From a virus, in the IMG/VR virus record IMGVR_UViG_3300035207_000026, positions 1 to 29,980 of that record: DNA of 29,980 nucleotides. One strand, 5' to 3'. The notes beneath the pieces are model-generated. The model made no database searches. It saw only the letters and a list, made by a program, of their open reading frames with translations, and was not told the origin of the DNA. Shown here piece after piece: positions 12,789 through 29,501 of this stretch. A program made the position numbers and the translations under genes. How positions within the stretch are numbered: position 1 is the first letter of the stretch; each line of letters opens with the position of its first letter.

Positions 12789-12808
12789 AATTGTCAAGGA
12801 TGATGGTT

Positions 12809-13255
12809 ATGAACAGTGCAGCGGATGCGTTTGAATGTAAAATTTATAACATTTCTTACCGAACAACTTATCGTGGTGCATCATCGGTAATTAAAAAAAT
12901 CCCCAGCGAGACTGAAGATCAAATTGAATTGGTAAAGTGGATGGAGAAAAAAGGTCTTAAATTTTATGCTGTACCTAACGGCGGTTATCGTAGAATCTCT
13001 GAGGCCGTCAGATTTAAGCATAGCGGCGTTAAAGCTGGGGTCCCTGATCTATGTATACCTTTTCCTTCAGGACCTTACCATGGTCTTTATATTGAGCTTA
13101 AAAGGGTTATTGGAGGGGAGGTTTCTGTCGTTCAGCAGGAGTGGGTAGATTATTTAAATTCTGTTGGATATTATGCGGCGATTTGCCGGGGATTTGAAGA
13201 AGCCAAAAGAACAGTAGAATATTATTTATCACTTAATGATGATAAAATTGCTTAA
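12809..13255 (+). CDS. VRR-NUC domain nuclease
   Basis: 148 residues from the ATG at 12809, chosen because AAGGA lies 8 bases before it; in-frame ATGs at 12800 and 12803 are too close to that site. The VRR-NUC fold of the PD-(D/E)xK superfamily is visible in order: Glu36 (SETEDQIELVKWM), AVPNGGYRR at 54-62, GVPDL at 77-81 (Asp80), IELK at 95-98 (Glu96, Lys98) and Gln109 in the following helix. Stand-alone phage VRR-NUC proteins are structure-specific nucleases thought to process replication or recombination branches. It follows the replication genes. GC content is above that of its neighbours. Confidence 0.85.
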   Translation: MNSAADAFECKIYNISYRTTYRGASSVIKKIPSETEDQIELVKWMEKKGLKFYAVPNGGYRRISEAVRFKHSGVKAGVPDLCIPFPSGPYHGLYIELKRVIGGEVSVVQQEWVDYLNSVGYYAAICRGFEEAKRTVEYYLSLNDDKIA

Positions 13256-16670: not shown

Positions 16671-16805
16671 ATGGAATTATTTTTAGAAATATTCGCATAT
16701 TTATGCCTATTTTTATTTTTATCTTTAATAATCATTGGCTGTATTTATTATATTATTTGCTTTGTTTTATCTTCATTAGAAGTTTTAAAGGATTATAAAA
16801 AATGA
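16671..16805 (+). CDS. Tiny membrane protein
   Basis: 44 residues with a long hydrophobic helix (YLCLFLFLSLIIIGCIYYII), then a short polar tail (SLEVLKDYKK). It shares an ATGA overlap with the next gene. Function unknown; possibly a holin-like or inner-membrane accessory protein, without proof. Confidence 0.5.
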   Translation: MELFLEIFAYLCLFLFLSLIIIGCIYYIICFVLSSLEVLKDYKK

Positions 16806-16999
16806 ACTTAGTAGAAATAGTAAGTGGTAGTTCTCCGATGGATAGAATCAGACGTTCTATCTGGAATACTCAATTCTTAACAATTCCAATGGATAAAACT
16901 GATTCTTTATACTTTTGTGATAAGTATAATTTAGATGGGTGCGTTAAATATATTCCTCTCATAAATGATCTTGTGGCTAATGACTGGATTAAATTTTAA
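16802..16999 (+). CDS. Small DUF2829-like protein (tentative)
   Basis: 65 residues. RRSIWNTQFLTIPMDKTDSL, followed by KYIPLINDLVANDWIKF, resembles the DUF2829 pattern (xRxxWNxxxxx...P...xDxxAxDW at the end). Some DUF2829 members are the anti-Thoeris protein Tad2, which sequesters the cyclic ADP-ribose signal. This one is shorter than typical (~80-100 aa) and lacks the usual N-terminal 'FxEALxxLKxG' helix, so the match is weak. It overlaps the previous gene by ATGA. Confidence 0.4.
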   Translation: MNLVEIVSGSSPMDRIRRSIWNTQFLTIPMDKTDSLYFCDKYNLDGCVKYIPLINDLVANDWIKF

Positions 17000-19158: not shown

Positions 19159-20727
19159 ATGGATGAGGTAGAGCGAAAGATACGCCTGCGTCTTAAAAAT
19201 GACTTTATTCATTATGCTTCTAAATGTCTTAAAATTAGGACGGAGTCATCAGGATTACAGCCATTTATATTAAATGATGCACAATTATATTTACATAGTA
19301 AGGTTGAGCATCAATTAGCAACTACAGGAAAAGTAAGAATAATAATAGATAAAGGTCGTCAAATGGGATTAACGACTTATGTCCAAGGTAGATATTTTAG
19401 AAATGTTACACATAACTCTGGTACTAGAGCATTTATTTTAACGCATGAAGATAAGGCTACGAATAACTTATTTAATATGGCAAAAAGATTTTATGAGAAT
19501 TGTCCTAAAGTTATATGTCCAAGAATTAAAAAATCAAATTCTAAGGAATTAATATTTGAATCGATTGATTCTGGTTATCATATAGGAACAGCCGGAAATA
19601 AAGGAGTAGGAAGGTCAGACACTATTCAGTATTTTCACGGTTCAGAGGTATCAAGGTGGCCTAATACTTTAGATATAGCGCAAGGTGTCATGAGAACCAT
19701 TCCTAATGTTCCAGGAACAGAAGTATTTTTAGAATCAACTGCTAATGGTCAAGGTAATTATTTTCATGAGCAATGGCAAAAAGCTGAAACTGGTGAATCT
19801 GAATATTTACCTATTTTTATTCCTTGGTATTGGAAGAAAGAAAATAGTTCAAAACTAAAAGAAGGATTTAGTTTAACTGATGAAGAAGAATATTTAAAAC
19901 AAATATATCAATTAACCGATGAGCAAATATATTGGCGTCGTCTTACTATTGTTGAATTATCCATTGGTGGGGATAGCGGTGAAAAATCATTTAAGCGTGA
20001 ATATCCTTTTACTGCTGCTGAATCATTTGAAAATACTGGCGAAGATACATTTATAATGCCTGATTTAGTGGTGTCATCACGAAAGTGTCCTAATGTTGAT
20101 GGTGTAGGTCACTTACTTATTGGCTGCGATCCTGCTCGTTATGGAGACGATAGAACATCTATTATAAGAAGAAGAGGAAGAGAGGCTTATGGGCTACAAA
20201 GTTATGTTAAAAAAAGTACCATGGAAGTGGTTGGTTTACTCCATCGTATTATTGTTGATGAGTCTCCCAATAGGGTATTTATCGACATTGGGGGACTGGG
20301 TGCGGGAATTTACGATAGACTCGTTGAGCTCGGTTATCGTGATATTGTGGTTGCAGTTAATAGCGGAGAATCTCCGTTTGATGAAAAGAAATACTTAAAT
20401 AAGCGAGCCGAAATGTGGGGATTAATGCGTGAATGGTTATCTAATTATCCATGCAAAATACCTGATTTAGATTCTCTACATTCTGATTTAACCAATATTA
20501 AATATACTTACAATAGTAATTCACGTCTGCAATTAGAAAAAAAGGAAACGATGAAAAAGCGTGGAATTAGATCGCCAGATGAAGCAGACGCTTTAGCATT
20601 AACATTTGCATTGCCGGAATCAGCTATCATTGAGACTAAGCGTAAATTAAACAATGAAGCAGGTAAGGTTATATGGGATTCCATGCGTAATTTAGATTCA
20701 TTAAAGAGAAAATCTTATAGTAAATAA
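19159..20727 (+). CDS. Terminase large subunit (TerL)
   Basis: 522 residues. The DNA-packaging motor acts at the portal. ATPase half: a modified Walker A KGRQMGLTT at 65-73, and Walker B TIQYFHGSEV with catalytic Glu163. FLESTANGQG at 190-199 fits motif III (C-motif/coupling). Nuclease half (RNase H-like): GCDPARYGDD with Asp324 and Asp330/331, RVFIDIGGLGAG with Asp376, and PDEADALAL with Asp474/477. The length and motif set fit headful-type P22/HK97-like terminases. The ribosome site is AAGGAAGTTTCTTC. Confidence 0.93.
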   Translation: MDEVERKIRLRLKNDFIHYASKCLKIRTESSGLQPFILNDAQLYLHSKVEHQLATTGKVRIIIDKGRQMGLTTYVQGRYFRNVTHNSGTRAFILTHEDKATNNLFNMAKRFYENCPKVICPRIKKSNSKELIFESIDSGYHIGTAGNKGVGRSDTIQYFHGSEVSRWPNTLDIAQGVMRTIPNVPGTEVFLESTANGQGNYFHEQWQKAETGESEYLPIFIPWYWKKENSSKLKEGFSLTDEEEYLKQIYQLTDEQIYWRRLTIVELSIGGDSGEKSFKREYPFTAAESFENTGEDTFIMPDLVVSSRKCPNVDGVGHLLIGCDPARYGDDRTSIIRRRGREAYGLQSYVKKSTMEVVGLLHRIIVDESPNRVFIDIGGLGAGIYDRLVELGYRDIVVAVNSGESPFDEKKYLNKRAEMWGLMREWLSNYPCKIPDLDSLHSDLTNIKYTYNSNSRLQLEKKETMKKRGIRSPDEADALALTFALPESAIIETKRKLNNEAGKVIWDSMRNLDSLKRKSYSK

Positions 20728-20805: not shown

Positions 20806-22938
20806 ATGGAAGTGGCAAAAAGCTCACAAGACCAACTCGGTCGTATTAAAAAAAATATCAAAGAATCTTATGATGCATTTAAAACTAATTATGATCGTTA
20901 TAATGAGTTTCGTAAGTTTGTCTTTGAGACCTCTCTTAGCGCGGATGATATTTCTCTTTTAACCTCTCTATCAAAACCTCAGTTAGAATTTAATATTCAG
21001 GAAGCTTATATTTCTAGATTAATGGGAGAATTCTCAAAGCAAGAACCTGATGTTGCCGTTAATGCAGATGAGCATAATATGACTGATCCAATGACTATAA
21101 AAGTCACGGAACAACATATTCGTCATACATTAACCGATTCGGACAATTATTCTGTTCGTTATGAGATTTATAAAGAAATATTAAGTGGCGGCTTCAGTGT
21201 TGGTAAAGTTAAAACAGACTATCTAAATACAATGTCATTTAATCAAGGTATTTTCATTGAAAAGTGTTTTGATCCAACTCTGTGCGGATTTGATCAGTTA
21301 GCGAGACTTTCGCATAAAGGCGATGGTCGTTTTTGCTTTGAACTTTATCCTAAATCTAAAGAAGATTTTAAGAATGAATATCCAGACATCTCTATCCAAG
21401 GAATTTCATTTTCACGTGATTTTGAAGGGTTTAATTGGTCTTATTTAGCTGGTGAAACACCTATTCTTATTTGTGCTGATTATTATGAAAAGAAACATAA
21501 GAAAGTGAAATTAGTTCAGCTTTCAAATAAACAAGTAATGAAAGAAAAACAATATAAGGAAATGTTGGAAAAGTGGGATTCATTTGAAATGCCGCCTGTT
21601 GTGGTTAATAGCCGAATGACAACCATGGATGTGATTTGCCGATATAAGTTAATTGAAAGCCAAATATTGGAATATGAAGAAACAGATTTTACCATGTTGC
21701 CATTGGTTTTCTTTGATGGTAACTCAGTTCTTATTAAGACTAAAAACAATGGAAATGTTAAACAGGTTACTAGACCTTACTTATATCATGGTAAAGGAGC
21801 TCAGAGACTTAAAAACTTTGCTGGTATTACGCTCGCTAATGAAATTGAAAACATCGTTCAGCATAAGTTTATGGTGGCAAAGGAAGCTCTTCCTAAAGAA
21901 GAAGAATTTCTACAAGCTTATAAAGACATTCAAAAAGCATCCGTTCTGGTTTTCAATAATTCATATGAAGAAAATCCCGCAATGCAGATTCAAAACCCAA
22001 TTAGGGAAATCGCTAAAGTACCATGCCCGCAAGAGGTAATTGCTGCCTTCACAGGTGCAGATCAATTGATGCAAGGTATTTTAGGATCATATGATGCGCA
22101 ATTAGGAATTCAAAATAATCAATTGTCTGGCGTTGCGTTGGTTGAAGCAGCATCTCAGTCAAATGCAACAGCAATGCCTTATATTGTTGGTTACTTACAA
22201 GGAATGCAGCGCATTGCTCAAATATACTTAGATTTAATGCCGAAGTATTATGTAACACCTATGACAATCCCTATTAAAGATGAAGAAGGTAAAAAGTCAT
22301 TTATTAAGATTAACCAACAAGGTGGAATGGATATGGATTTTGATCCAAATCCATTGAAAGTAACAGTTAAAGCAGGTGCATCATTCCAAGTTCAAAAATC
22401 ACGTACTATTAACATGGTTAAAGAATTAATGGGGATGTCCCCGCTATTTGCACAGTTTATATCTGATAAGGGTATTAACTTCGTCTTAGATAATATGGAA
22501 GGTCGTGGTATTGAACAGCTAAAAGAAATGGTGGATGAATGGCAACGAGAAATGCAACAACAAAAACAAATGGCAATGCAGGCTCAACAGCAAGAAATGA
22601 TGAATAATCCTCAAATGTTAAAAGCACAGAATGATCGTGCTAAGATTCAATTAGAAGCACAAAAATCCCAAACTCAAGCTCAAATTGATATGGCTAGAAT
22701 GGAGCAGGATGAGAAAAAGCTATTATTGGATGCTAAACAAGCAAATGATGCTAATTTAGTTCAAATAATAAAATCAAATGCTGAGAGATATTCTAAGAAT
22801 ATTGACTTGCAATTAAAAGCAATTGATACTCGTCATAGGCATAGAAAAGAGAATATTGAGCTTTCACATAATATTCAAATGGATCATAAAAAGGAAAATA
22901 ACAATGCAAAAGGTTCAACAAAAAGTACGGTGGAATGA
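20806..22938 (+). CDS. Portal protein, P22 gp1-like
   Basis: 710 residues, close to the 725 of P22 gp1. It forms the dodecameric DNA channel that docks TerL. Family-like stretches are RKFVFETSLSADD, LTSLSKPQLEFNIQEAYISR, GGFSVGKVKTDYL, FDPTLCGFD and VALVEAASQSNATAMPYI. From about residue 575 the protein becomes Gln/Met/Lys-rich and helical (QQQKQMAMQAQQQEMM), then a long charged helix. This replaces or extends the C-terminal barrel of P22 and could reach into the capsid. AAGGATG lies before the ATG. P22 would have scaffold next; here 4.2 kb of accessory DNA intervenes. Confidence 0.88.
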   Translation: MEVAKSSQDQLGRIKKNIKESYDAFKTNYDRYNEFRKFVFETSLSADDISLLTSLSKPQLEFNIQEAYISRLMGEFSKQEPDVAVNADEHNMTDPMTIKVTEQHIRHTLTDSDNYSVRYEIYKEILSGGFSVGKVKTDYLNTMSFNQGIFIEKCFDPTLCGFDQLARLSHKGDGRFCFELYPKSKEDFKNEYPDISIQGISFSRDFEGFNWSYLAGETPILICADYYEKKHKKVKLVQLSNKQVMKEKQYKEMLEKWDSFEMPPVVVNSRMTTMDVICRYKLIESQILEYEETDFTMLPLVFFDGNSVLIKTKNNGNVKQVTRPYLYHGKGAQRLKNFAGITLANEIENIVQHKFMVAKEALPKEEEFLQAYKDIQKASVLVFNNSYEENPAMQIQNPIREIAKVPCPQEVIAAFTGADQLMQGILGSYDAQLGIQNNQLSGVALVEAASQSNATAMPYIVGYLQGMQRIAQIYLDLMPKYYVTPMTIPIKDEEGKKSFIKINQQGGMDMDFDPNPLKVTVKAGASFQVQKSRTINMVKELMGMSPLFAQFISDKGINFVLDNMEGRGIEQLKEMVDEWQREMQQQKQMAMQAQQQEMMNNPQMLKAQNDRAKIQLEAQKSQTQAQIDMARMEQDEKKLLLDAKQANDANLVQIIKSNAERYSKNIDLQLKAIDTRHRHRKENIELSHNIQMDHKKENNNAKGSTKSTVE

Positions 22939-25294: not shown

Positions 25295-25350
25295 AAAAAA
25301 TAAAAAACCCGCCGAGGTGCGCATTGTTAAGAGGCGTGGCAGGTGTTGTT
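25295..25350 (-). ncRNA. Candidate small RNA, leftward, with terminator
   Basis: On the - strand a perfect TATAAT (complement of 25357-25362) lies upstream of a GC-rich hairpin, CCTGCC/GGCGGG (25338-25343 with 25308-25313), followed by TTTTTTATTTTTT (25295-25307). The loop is long (24 nt) and can fold further. The RNA would end about 10 bp from the terminator of the rightward small RNA. A -35 box is not clear. It may instead be only a terminator for leftward transcripts. Confidence 0.4.
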
Positions 25351-27139: not shown

Positions 27140-27892
27140 ATGACCGAAATGGCTAATGGATTAGGCCAAGATAATGGTAGTTTAAATGTTCAAAATGTTC
27201 CATCTAATCCGAGTATCGCGCAGGATGCGCCGCAACCGGCAATGGATGAACGAGTTTTTAAGCAGTCTGAAGTTAATGACATTGTAAGACGTGCTAAAAA
27301 TGATGCTGTTGAAACTTTTAAGAGACTACAGGTTGAACAACCTCAATATGCTCAACAAAAGTATGCTGATACTCCTCAGTATCAACCGTCACAAAGTACC
27401 TCTGGCGAAGATCATTACAGAAAGATTGCCGCAGAAGAAGCTAAGCGTCATTTTGAATCAGTAAAGCAGGATGCTTTGCGCCAAAATCAAGATGAAATGG
27501 CCAAACGGACGGTGCAGAACTTCTTTTCAAAAACATCAAAAGGACGTGAAAAATACCAAGATTTTGACCAGGTCACGGGAGATGTTGATTTAGGAAGATT
27601 CCCAAATGTGGTTCAGCTTTTAGGGGACATCCTAGAAAATTCTGAAGATGTTTTTTATGAATTAGGCAAAGATAGAATTAAGATGGCCAATTTAGAACAT
27701 CTTGCAACTATCTCACCAAATGATGCAATTGTACAGGCAAGACGATTGGCTCAATCAATTAAAGACAATCAGAATGCTTCCAATGCAAAACAAGCTAGAG
27801 CGCCTCTCGATCAAATAAAACCTACAAATTACGGCACAGAGGATAATCCTCTATCTGTTTCTGATTTTAGGAAAAAATACAGATTAGGATAA
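27140..27892 (+). CDS. Capsid scaffolding protein (P22 gp8-like)
   Basis: 250 residues; P22 gp8 has 303. It is highly charged, helical and Gln-rich, without a hydrophobic core: a disordered N-terminus (SNPSIAQDAPQPAMDERVF), a central helix region (AAEEAKRHFESVKQDALRQN), then AKRTVQNFFSKTSKGREKYQ and a basic C-terminal end (SVSDFRKKYRLG) where P22 gp8 has its coat-binding helix-turn-helix. Its position directly before the coat gene fixes the role: it directs procapsid assembly and leaves before or during packaging. AAAAAGGGATTTTATT precedes the ATG. Confidence 0.78.
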   Translation: MTEMANGLGQDNGSLNVQNVPSNPSIAQDAPQPAMDERVFKQSEVNDIVRRAKNDAVETFKRLQVEQPQYAQQKYADTPQYQPSQSTSGEDHYRKIAAEEAKRHFESVKQDALRQNQDEMAKRTVQNFFSKTSKGREKYQDFDQVTGDVDLGRFPNVVQLLGDILENSEDVFYELGKDRIKMANLEHLATISPNDAIVQARRLAQSIKDNQNASNAKQARAPLDQIKPTNYGTEDNPLSVSDFRKKYRLG

Positions 27893-27937
27893 AAATTTCT
27901 CTGACCACTTTTATGGATGAAAGTAGGGAGAATAAAC

Positions 27938-29501
27938 ATGGCTGTTTATCCGCAAAATATTTTGCAACAAGTCCAAACTTATCAACGATCAGGTTTAGGA
28001 ATATTACTTAACTTATGCTGTCATTTATCGACCGCAAATACAAAATTTAAAGATTTTGATCAAATTACGGCTTAAAAGTTAGGTCCGCCATAAAGAAATT
28101 TATGGTTGTAACTGGGTGAACTCATGGGAAGTCTCTAAAGAGATAATCATGATCCAAGCTCCGAAAGGAGAAGGTGCAACGACTAGACCGAAAGGTCGTA
28201 CTCTCAAGTGAGAGGAAGTGCCCAGCCCCGAAAGGGTGAAGATATAGTCTGATCTGCTAGGTGACTAGTAGCTGCCAAAAAGGCGGGTTGAGAATAACGA
28301 ACTCAATTGAACATAAATGAACTTAGGAAGCACGGTCACGTTTGACCTACCACCGAGATTTACTACTACTCAAGGTTTAGTTGCATCTTGGCAAGCTGCA
28401 TCTCAACGCGTACAACAATTAGTTGCTGATCAATCAAATAACACCTCTTTCACTGTTACATCACAACAACGTATTTTTAACTTAGAAAAAGGTGAAGAAG
28501 ATTATACCAAAGTATTTGGCCGATCTGCTATTGCAGAACTTGCTAACTTGGTTGAAGGTAACATTGCTAAAAATTGGGATTCTTCAGTTGTATCTCAAGT
28601 CGATGGAACAACTAATACCTTTTCAGGACCGTATCGCTTTTACGGAAACGGCAGTGATTCCATAAGTTCTTATCAGCAATTAGCTCAGATGGTTATGTTG
28701 TTCAAAAATTACGGCTCTGTTGCTACTGGTATGAAAGTTTATTTACCAGATACTATTATACCCAGTATAGTAGGAAATGGTCTAAATCAGTTCAGCCCTC
28801 AAAGAAATGACGATATTGCTATGAGCTGGAATGTTGGCAGTTTTGGTACACCTCCTGTTGAATATTACCAATCTAACTTAATGCCAATTCACGTTTCTGG
28901 TAATACTGGTGTTAATGCTCAGACCCTTACAATTGTCAGCACTAATGATCCAACTGGTCAAAATGTTACTCAATTGACAGTCTCTGGAGCATCTAATAGT
29001 GATTCTAATGCTATTAAATCTGGTGACTTATTTCAGTTTAAAGATGGAGTCTCTAACCAACCTAATATGCGTTATTTGACTTTCGTTGGCCATTATCAAT
29101 CTGCAAATCCAGTTCAATTTAGAGCTGTTAATGATGCTGGTTCTAATGCTTCAGGTGTTGTTACATTTAGTATTACACCAGCACTTAATTGGGCAGGTGG
29201 AGCTAATCAAAACTTAAATAATCCTATTGCTGCGGGAATGCAATTATTGACCTTACCTTCTCATCGTGCAGGTGGCGTATTAGGTGATAATGGATTGTTT
29301 ATTGCAATGCCTCAATTACCTGAACAAAGACCTTACGATACTGCAAATGAATATGATAAAGATACTGGTGCATCTATTCGTTTAACATATGGTTCTTTAT
29401 TCGGACAAAACCAAACTGGTATGGTATATGATGAAGTTCATGGATCAGTTATTGTTCCTGAATATTCAATGCGTATTGTTATACCATTGTCTCAAGGATA
29501 A
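27938..29501 (+). CDS. Major capsid (coat) protein, P22 gp5-like, split by a group I intron
   Basis: Exon 1 is 27938-28072 (45 codons, MAVYPQNILQQVQTYQRSGL to DFDQITA). Exon 2 is 28320-29501 (393 codons plus stop, NLGSTVTFDLPPRFTTTQG onward). Joined they give 438 residues (P22 gp5: 430) with a seamless reading frame at ITA|NLGS. The P22-type coat has an N-arm, a spine helix (WQAASQRVQQLVADQ) and inserted beta domain features; the C-terminus ends MRIVIPLSQG. Without splicing translation stops at codon 46 (UAA), so capsid yield depends on splicing. An AUG at 28317, the last intron bases, could start exon 2 alone but has no ribosome site. GTAGGGAG (27923-27930) precedes the exon 1 ATG. Confidence 0.85.
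28073..28319 (+). ncRNA. Group I self-splicing intron (IA-type) in the coat gene
   Basis: 247 nt, no ORF. Assigned elements: P1 exon GGCU (28069-28072) with GGUC (28082-28085), U-G at the splice site; P10 AAGUU (28076-28080) with exon 2 AACUU; P2 CCATAAA/TTTATGG, GAAA loop; P3 CTGGGT (28112) with GCCCAG (28220); P4 TCATGG/TCATGA; P5 TCTC/GAGA; P6 CTCC/GGAG, GAAA loop; P7 GACTA (28181) with TAGTC (28245); P7.1 GACC/GGTC, GAAA loop; P7.2 CTCTC/GAGAG; P8 CCC/GGG, GAAA loop; P9 CTGCTAG/CTAGTAG, GTGA loop; P9.1 and P9.2 follow. The terminal base is G (omega-G, 28319). P7.1 and P7.2 together point to subgroup IA. Guanosine-initiated self-splicing is known for the class; activity here is inferred. 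Confidence 0.92.

Follow-up and report, generated by a model that had tools for sequence, protein, structure and literature searches.

The coat gene at 27938-29501 of the window, by which we mean the whole virus record of 29,980 bases analyzed here, has a reading frame that, when left unspliced, stops after 45 aa, and this raises the question of how a full-length coat protein might be made from it. Very probably, as judged from the sequence, the gene is interrupted after codon 45 by a td-like group I intron of type IA, 247 nt long and ORF-less, and would be spliced to give a coat protein of 438 aa. A second question is how such an intron, itself devoid of an endonuclease gene, came to reside there.

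The coat gene and its virus

The window spans roughly three quarters of the length of its relatives' genomes and contains a P22-like head module with genes for terminase, portal, a scaffold-like protein and the coat; the phage carrying the intron is podovirus-like. On the plus strand, the terminase large subunit (19159-20727; phrog_2, E 6e-28) is followed by the P22-like portal protein of the same head module (20806-22938; PF16510, E 5e-89). Directly 5′ of the coat gene lies a gene for a scaffolding-like protein (27140-27892, plus strand; phrog_8865 head scaffolding protein, E 7e-6), which supports the assignment of the coat gene as a capsid gene.

A Shine-Dalgarno-like AGGGAG, read directly from the sequence, is found before the coat gene (27925-27930, plus strand). 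Exon 1 (27938-28072, plus strand) starts with ATG and comprises 45 codons; it is supported by its translation and by the corresponding peptides of the listed relatives, which are 73-87% identical. Exon 2 (28320-29501, plus strand) comprises 393 codons and a stop and matches phrog_283, a major head protein family. When the exons are joined at 28072|28320, where the joined sequence reads ACGGCT|AACTTAGG, a single frame of 438 aa results. The joined protein matches phrog_283 with an E-value of 9.7e-10, versus 4.3e-8 for exon 2 alone, and its match reaches into exon 1. Among 20 relatives, nine also match phrog_283 (best E 2e-14), and the homologue in contig L232 aligns to positions 43-382 of the 385 in the family. 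The interrupted gene is assigned as the major capsid gene from its PHROG similarity and its place in the gene order. AlphaFold2, applied to a 20-sequence capsid alignment, failed to predict a fold (pLDDT 36).

Searches of isolated phages by tblastn, with the coat and scaffold proteins as queries, gave no match. In GTDB genomes the coat gene was found only in four metagenome-assembled contigs, which belong to mixed taxa and give no reliable host.

Two other elements of the window may relate to host defense. abiF RNA is the antitoxin RNA of AbiF systems, and a copy was identified on the minus strand at window positions 25307-25343 (Rfam, 53.6 bits, gathering score 37), as well as in the relatives G029 (58 bits) and G031, with weaker copies in others. 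No Abi_2 gene was found in the window contig or, where searched, in the abiF-bearing relatives. The phage RNA is possibly a decoy antitoxin directed against a host AbiF; AbiF is neutralized in trans by RCd22 of C. difficile (PMC12373285). The 3′ end of the window abiF RNA consists of a terminator-like stem and a T run, and the rival reading is that it acts as a terminator. In addition, a 65-aa ORF at window positions 16802-16999 shows weak likeness to a Tad2-like Thoeris anti-defense domain (E 0.0012, short of the curated cut-off).

Identity and anatomy of the intron

Three lines of evidence, the Rfam family RF00028, the empty sites in relatives and folding, place the intron at 28073-28319 on the plus strand, with UAA as its first triplet, in frame with exon 1, and an omega-G (G28319) as its last base. 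Rfam Intron_gpI (RF00028) matched positions 28064-28271 of the plus strand with 74.5 bits (gathering score 50, E 2.2e-17). Together with a junction that is empty in 77 relatives, this bears out the original prediction, made from the sequence, of a group I intron in the major capsid gene.

The anatomy observed here also agrees with that prediction, according to which helices P1 to P10, an omega-G and both P7.1 and P7.2 fit into 247 nt: P2 to P9.2 are paired without mismatch, and P1 and P10 are legible in the sequence. In P1 (28069-28085), the exon end GGCU (28069-28072) pairs with the guide GGUC (28082-28085), with U28072.G28082 at the splice site and the helix extended by UAA/UUA inside the intron. 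The P10 strand AAGUU (28076-28080) pairs with AACUU of the 3′ exon (28320-28324). P2 (28088-28105) has 7 bp and a GAAA loop and was supported by a pairing check. P3 (28112-28225) is formed by 28112-28118 with 28219-28225 and encloses P4 (28122-28127/28147-28152), P5 (28131-28135/28140-28144), P6/P6a (28154-28174), P7.1 and P7.2; from P3 to P6a, pairing is accompanied by compensatory changes. The P7 pseudoknot (28181-28249), formed by 28181-28185 with 28245-28249, is supported by pairing and by the alignment. P7.1 (28186-28197, GAAA loop) and P7.2 (28201-28214) show changes on both sides in all pairs, and P8 (28227-28236, GAAA loop) and the P9 region (28254-28307), composed of P9 with a GUGA loop, P9.1 and P9.2, are supported by pairing, with covariation in P8 and P9. 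All these elements lie on the plus strand. The predicted set of four GAAA loops (L2, L6a, L7.1, and L8) and one GUGA loop (L9) is present. The small size, on the other hand, which had been regarded as remarkable, falls within the known range (the BAKA intron has 265 bp).

P7.1 and P7.2 between P3 and P7 are extra helices typical of subgroup IA, and from the presence of both the intron is classified as IA and td-like. Thymidylate synthase introns of T4-like phages match the window intron both in sequence and at the level of the model (L106, 50 bits). The claim that the intron lacks a homing endonuclease was confirmed, in that no open frame of more than 54 codons was found inside it on either strand.

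Empty sites in related coat genes

A scan of viral contigs for the coat gene returned 80 loci, 79 of them other than this virus. In 77 of the 79 related contigs, the counterparts of exon 1 and exon 2 follow each other directly (gap 0), exactly at the predicted junction, while in the remaining two the coat gene is cut by the contig end. A second scan, with an alignment as query, gave further uninterrupted coat genes. The original prediction had proposed a search for intron-less relatives in which the junction is conserved, and these 77 uninterrupted coat genes provide them. The codons flanking the junction are conserved, the window having I-T-A|N-L-G where most relatives have I-Q-A|N-L-G; the claim that joining of the exons restores ITA|NLGS in frame is consistent with this conservation and with the 438-aa product.

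The sole second copy of the intron was found in L002, which shares 3,369 bases with the window without a single difference. L002 thus represents the same virus and was rejected as independent confirmation. Matches to Intron_gpI of 22 bits in the relatives G037 and G038 were also discarded, as they lie inside the open frame of another gene.

Folding and covariation

Unconstrained folding recovered 11 helices (P2, P3, P4, P5, P6a, P7.1, P7.2, P8, P9, P9.1, and P9.2), with a stability z of −4.6 and none of 200 shuffles equally stable. A covariance model made from the window intron alone identified related introns in phages and viral contigs. In their alignment, 93% of the pair cells are standard pairs, a percentage inflated by the fitting of the alignment to a model of the window intron, which favours the structure. 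Covariation was observed throughout, with changes on both sides in 39 of 48 pairs and a covariation score of 0.489; shuffled versions averaged 0.128, and none of the 500 reached the observed value. In slid helix controls all scores were below 0.1 and standard pairs fell to 33-41%. Double changes are many in P3, P4, P5, P6a, P7.1, P7.2, P8, and P9, and all nine pairs of P7.1 and P7.2 have changed on both sides. P7 is nearly invariant, with a double change in one of its five pairs.

Splicing and the in-frame stop

From these features we infer catalysis, splicing in infected cells and a role for the stop codon in halting the ribosome. The late transcript would fold into a ribozyme comprising P3 to P9, in which P1 presents the GGCU exon end and, by analogy with td, guanosine attacks; P10 would then align the 3′ exon, so that ligation would yield the mRNA for the 438-aa coat protein. 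As the original prediction proposed, the supply of capsids may depend on splicing, and the ribozyme may be an efficient one. The in-frame UAA, as the first codon of the intron, may halt the ribosome before the ribozyme gets unfolded and would limit the unspliced product to 45 aa. Reading of the frame upheld the claim that unspliced RNA gives a 45-aa peptide only; the notion that such a stop is special did not hold, since an in-frame stop just past the 5′ junction is found in most group I introns, where its presumed role is to prevent ribosomes from entering the ribozyme, and group I splicing is aided when the exon upstream is translated (PMC3073962, PMC3984707).

A recently inactivated intron could look alike, but no broken pair was seen. 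That the segment is instead a structured, non-intron insertion disrupting the coat gene, as a pseudogene or an assembly error, is extremely unlikely: in the absence of splicing the stop codon and frameshift would indeed inactivate the gene, but the junction is exact to the base, the ribozyme core is complete and conserved, the exons are intact, and a second contig, L002, has the identical sequence.

Distribution of the intron lineage in IMG/VR

With P7, P7.1, and P7.2 as the pattern defining the lineage, at least 119 stretches were matched in IMG/VR, and the matches listed contain 69 distinct introns after removal of duplicates, related viruses included. No matches were obtained with a composite DNA pattern in which the gap was allowed to vary. 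Major capsid genes of several coat families host at least 35 of the 69: 16 are of the phrog_1328 type, seven of the N4-like phrog_1357 type, six, including that of the window virus, of the phrog_283 type, four of the phrog_371 type, and two of others. The exons around the L211 intron also match a major head family. DNA polymerase genes are the next most frequent host, with about 13 of the 69. As a control, td-like introns outside the lineage were sampled by means of a motif located in the 3′ strand of P7 (L305-L380, no lineage member included), and at least 20 of these 67 reside in capsid genes, often just after the scaffold gene. Host genes were assigned from automatically chosen flanking ORFs, some of them by clustering, and the capsid shares are therefore rough lower bounds.

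Capsid genes are clearly common hosts of td-like introns and may rank among the main targets of introns in uncultivated phages. Metagenomic capsid genes may thus often be split and hence overlooked by annotation. An intron of the same type was also seen in two IMG/VR matches (L202 and L248), inside a viral-contig gene with exons that, read by eye only, resemble the C subunit of ammonia/methane monooxygenase.

Closest introns and possible routes of mobility

Among the matches listed, the three introns nearest to that of the window (82, 81, and 81% identity, the next being at 78%) are those of L214, L232, and L243. Like the window intron, all three interrupt genes of the same coat family, are 245-249 nt long, start with UAA, end with G and carry no endonuclease ORF. 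Unlike it, they occupy other sites: the L232 intron is inserted after N-L-G, exactly 9 nt downstream, while those of L214 and L243 lie about 110 codons downstream, inside the Y codon of S-S-Y-Q-Q. In a tree of 74 introns, the window intron, L214, L232, and L243 make up a single clade (97/90) that falls within a 12-member group consisting of capsid introns only, from three coat families (89/97). The tree is based on about 220 columns, its bootstrap has yet to settle completely, and many of the deeper forks are weak. Most probably, as far as the intron tree tells, an ancestor of the window phage gained its intron from another site in a capsid gene. Circumstantially, the pattern suggests that an ORF-less intron lineage spreads ectopically among capsid genes, by reverse splicing or with a nuclease acting in trans.

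The original prediction held that the intron is either immobile or moves in trans. Both alternatives are retained here as rivals, but RNA-based ectopic movement, suggested by the relatives at other sites, had been omitted. By our estimate, reverse splicing now ranks first, at about one in three, followed by homing in trans, slightly lower, and then by loss of the ORF.

By the RNA route, which we put forward tentatively, the excised intron would reverse-splice into abundant capsid mRNA at sites matched by its guide, and a DNA copy would recombine into the genome. This would account for ORF-less introns at three sites of one coat family, with the four members in a single clade, and in unrelated coat genes. 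The introns have different guide sequences, each of them matched to the exon end of its own gene (GGCU/GGUC, AGGU/GCCU, and AGCU/GGCU), and the label of capsid versus other host changes only six times on the tree, while shuffled labels never gave fewer than 17 changes. Moreover, HNH_3, HNH, GIY-YIG, and endonuclease VII domains were not detected in the contigs of the window, L214, L232, and L243 (incomplete genomes, one of 38.8 kb), whereas the positive controls were detected. Ordinary homing does not readily account for shifts of site inside a single gene, and in fungal rDNA such a pattern has been taken as circumstantial evidence for reverse splicing (PMC1299323). Against this route, the phage has no known reverse transcriptase, and reverse splicing of group I introns is without direct demonstration as a path of mobility (PMC3984707, PMC1299323), a 2014 review having found no direct evidence for it (PMC3984707). 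The limits of the tree weigh here as well, and L214 and L243, which share one site, are not sisters in it, although their sisterhood is not rejected (AU p 0.25). A more far-reaching reading, in which an endonuclease-free lineage specialized on capsid genes hops within and between coat genes by reverse splicing into late mRNA, and the window intron is a recent insertion, is somewhat doubtful.

Homing in trans, by an endonuclease encoded elsewhere, such as the VRR-NUC of the phage or an enzyme of a co-infecting phage, is a possible but rather unlikely alternative. Phages provide documented cases of ORF-less introns that spread by collaborative homing (review, PMC3984707), and free-standing endonucleases are frequent near capsid genes (PMC10448857). 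A VRR-NUC gene is located at 12791-13255 of the window and occurs in two other intron-bearing contigs. Overall, VRR-NUC was found in three of four intron-bearing contigs (the window, G050, and G051) and not in the partial G049. However, seven of 20 intron-less relatives also carry it, the HNH, GIY-YIG, and endonuclease VII domains mentioned above were not detected in these contigs, and homing alone would leave the insertion site within the gene unchanged.

Still less probable is that the intron is now immobile, inherited from an ancestor whose endonuclease ORF was lost. Introns of the same type do carry endonuclease ORFs elsewhere, for example in DNA polymerase genes and near the capsid genes of SP-15 and Vibrio phage 1.232.O, but absence of the intron from almost all relatives of the coat gene indicates poor vertical persistence, and the close introns sit at different sites.

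As a single intron, that of the window is ordinary; the interest lies in its distribution, as part of a capsid-associated, ORF-less lineage at shifting sites. For reverse splicing as a natural way for group I introns to move, the support so far is circumstantial and comes chiefly from fungal rDNA. It could be put to a direct test in phage coat genes, where generations are short, alleles can be counted and the introns are small.

Comparison with known phage introns

The location in a coat gene, presented as exceptional in the original prediction, has precedents in phage LittleE (PMC3706429) and in crAss-like phages (PMC7886860) and is shared by about half of the IMG/VR sample of the lineage. 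LittleE, a Cluster J mycobacteriophage, likewise has an intron, most likely of group I, in its major capsid gene, and its splicing was proven in 2013 by RT-PCR and N-terminal protein sequencing (PMC3706429). Unlike the window intron, it is 819 bp long, has an endonuclease ORF on the other strand and interrupts an unrelated capsid gene in a phage of a high-GC host (PMC3706429). Closer in size is the ORF-less tail intron of BAKA, also of Cluster J, which lies in a virion gene as well and splices (PMC3706429). The delta and zeta crAss-like phages share with the window group I introns in the major capsid gene, but there they are sometimes several per gene, were detected via intron-encoded endonuclease domains and often occur alongside stop-codon reassignment (PMC7886860).

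Among annotated phages, the capsid gene of SP-15, which matches the window intron, is recorded as two joined pieces that flank an endonuclease gene, and in Vibrio phage 1.232.O the match lies in the region after the annotated capsid gene. In phage C72C1 (OQ984150.1), an ORF-less group I intron of about 251 nt (L103, approximately 1174-1424) splits the major head gene; the record lists two fragments named "major head protein" along with hypothetical ORFs on the antisense strand, with the intron unannotated. Like the window intron it is ORF-less and about 250 nt long, and it is the second-best match of the ribozyme model derived from the window (134 bits), whereas its capsid gene belongs to another family, phrog_1328. 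With the td-type introns of T4 (IA2, T-even phages) the window intron shares the same core, P7.1/P7.2 and P9, but it differs in lacking an I-TevI-like ORF, in its length of 247 nt and in residing in a capsid gene rather than the thymidylate synthase gene. The window intron thus adds to a known class of group I introns in phage capsid genes, on record since at least 2013.
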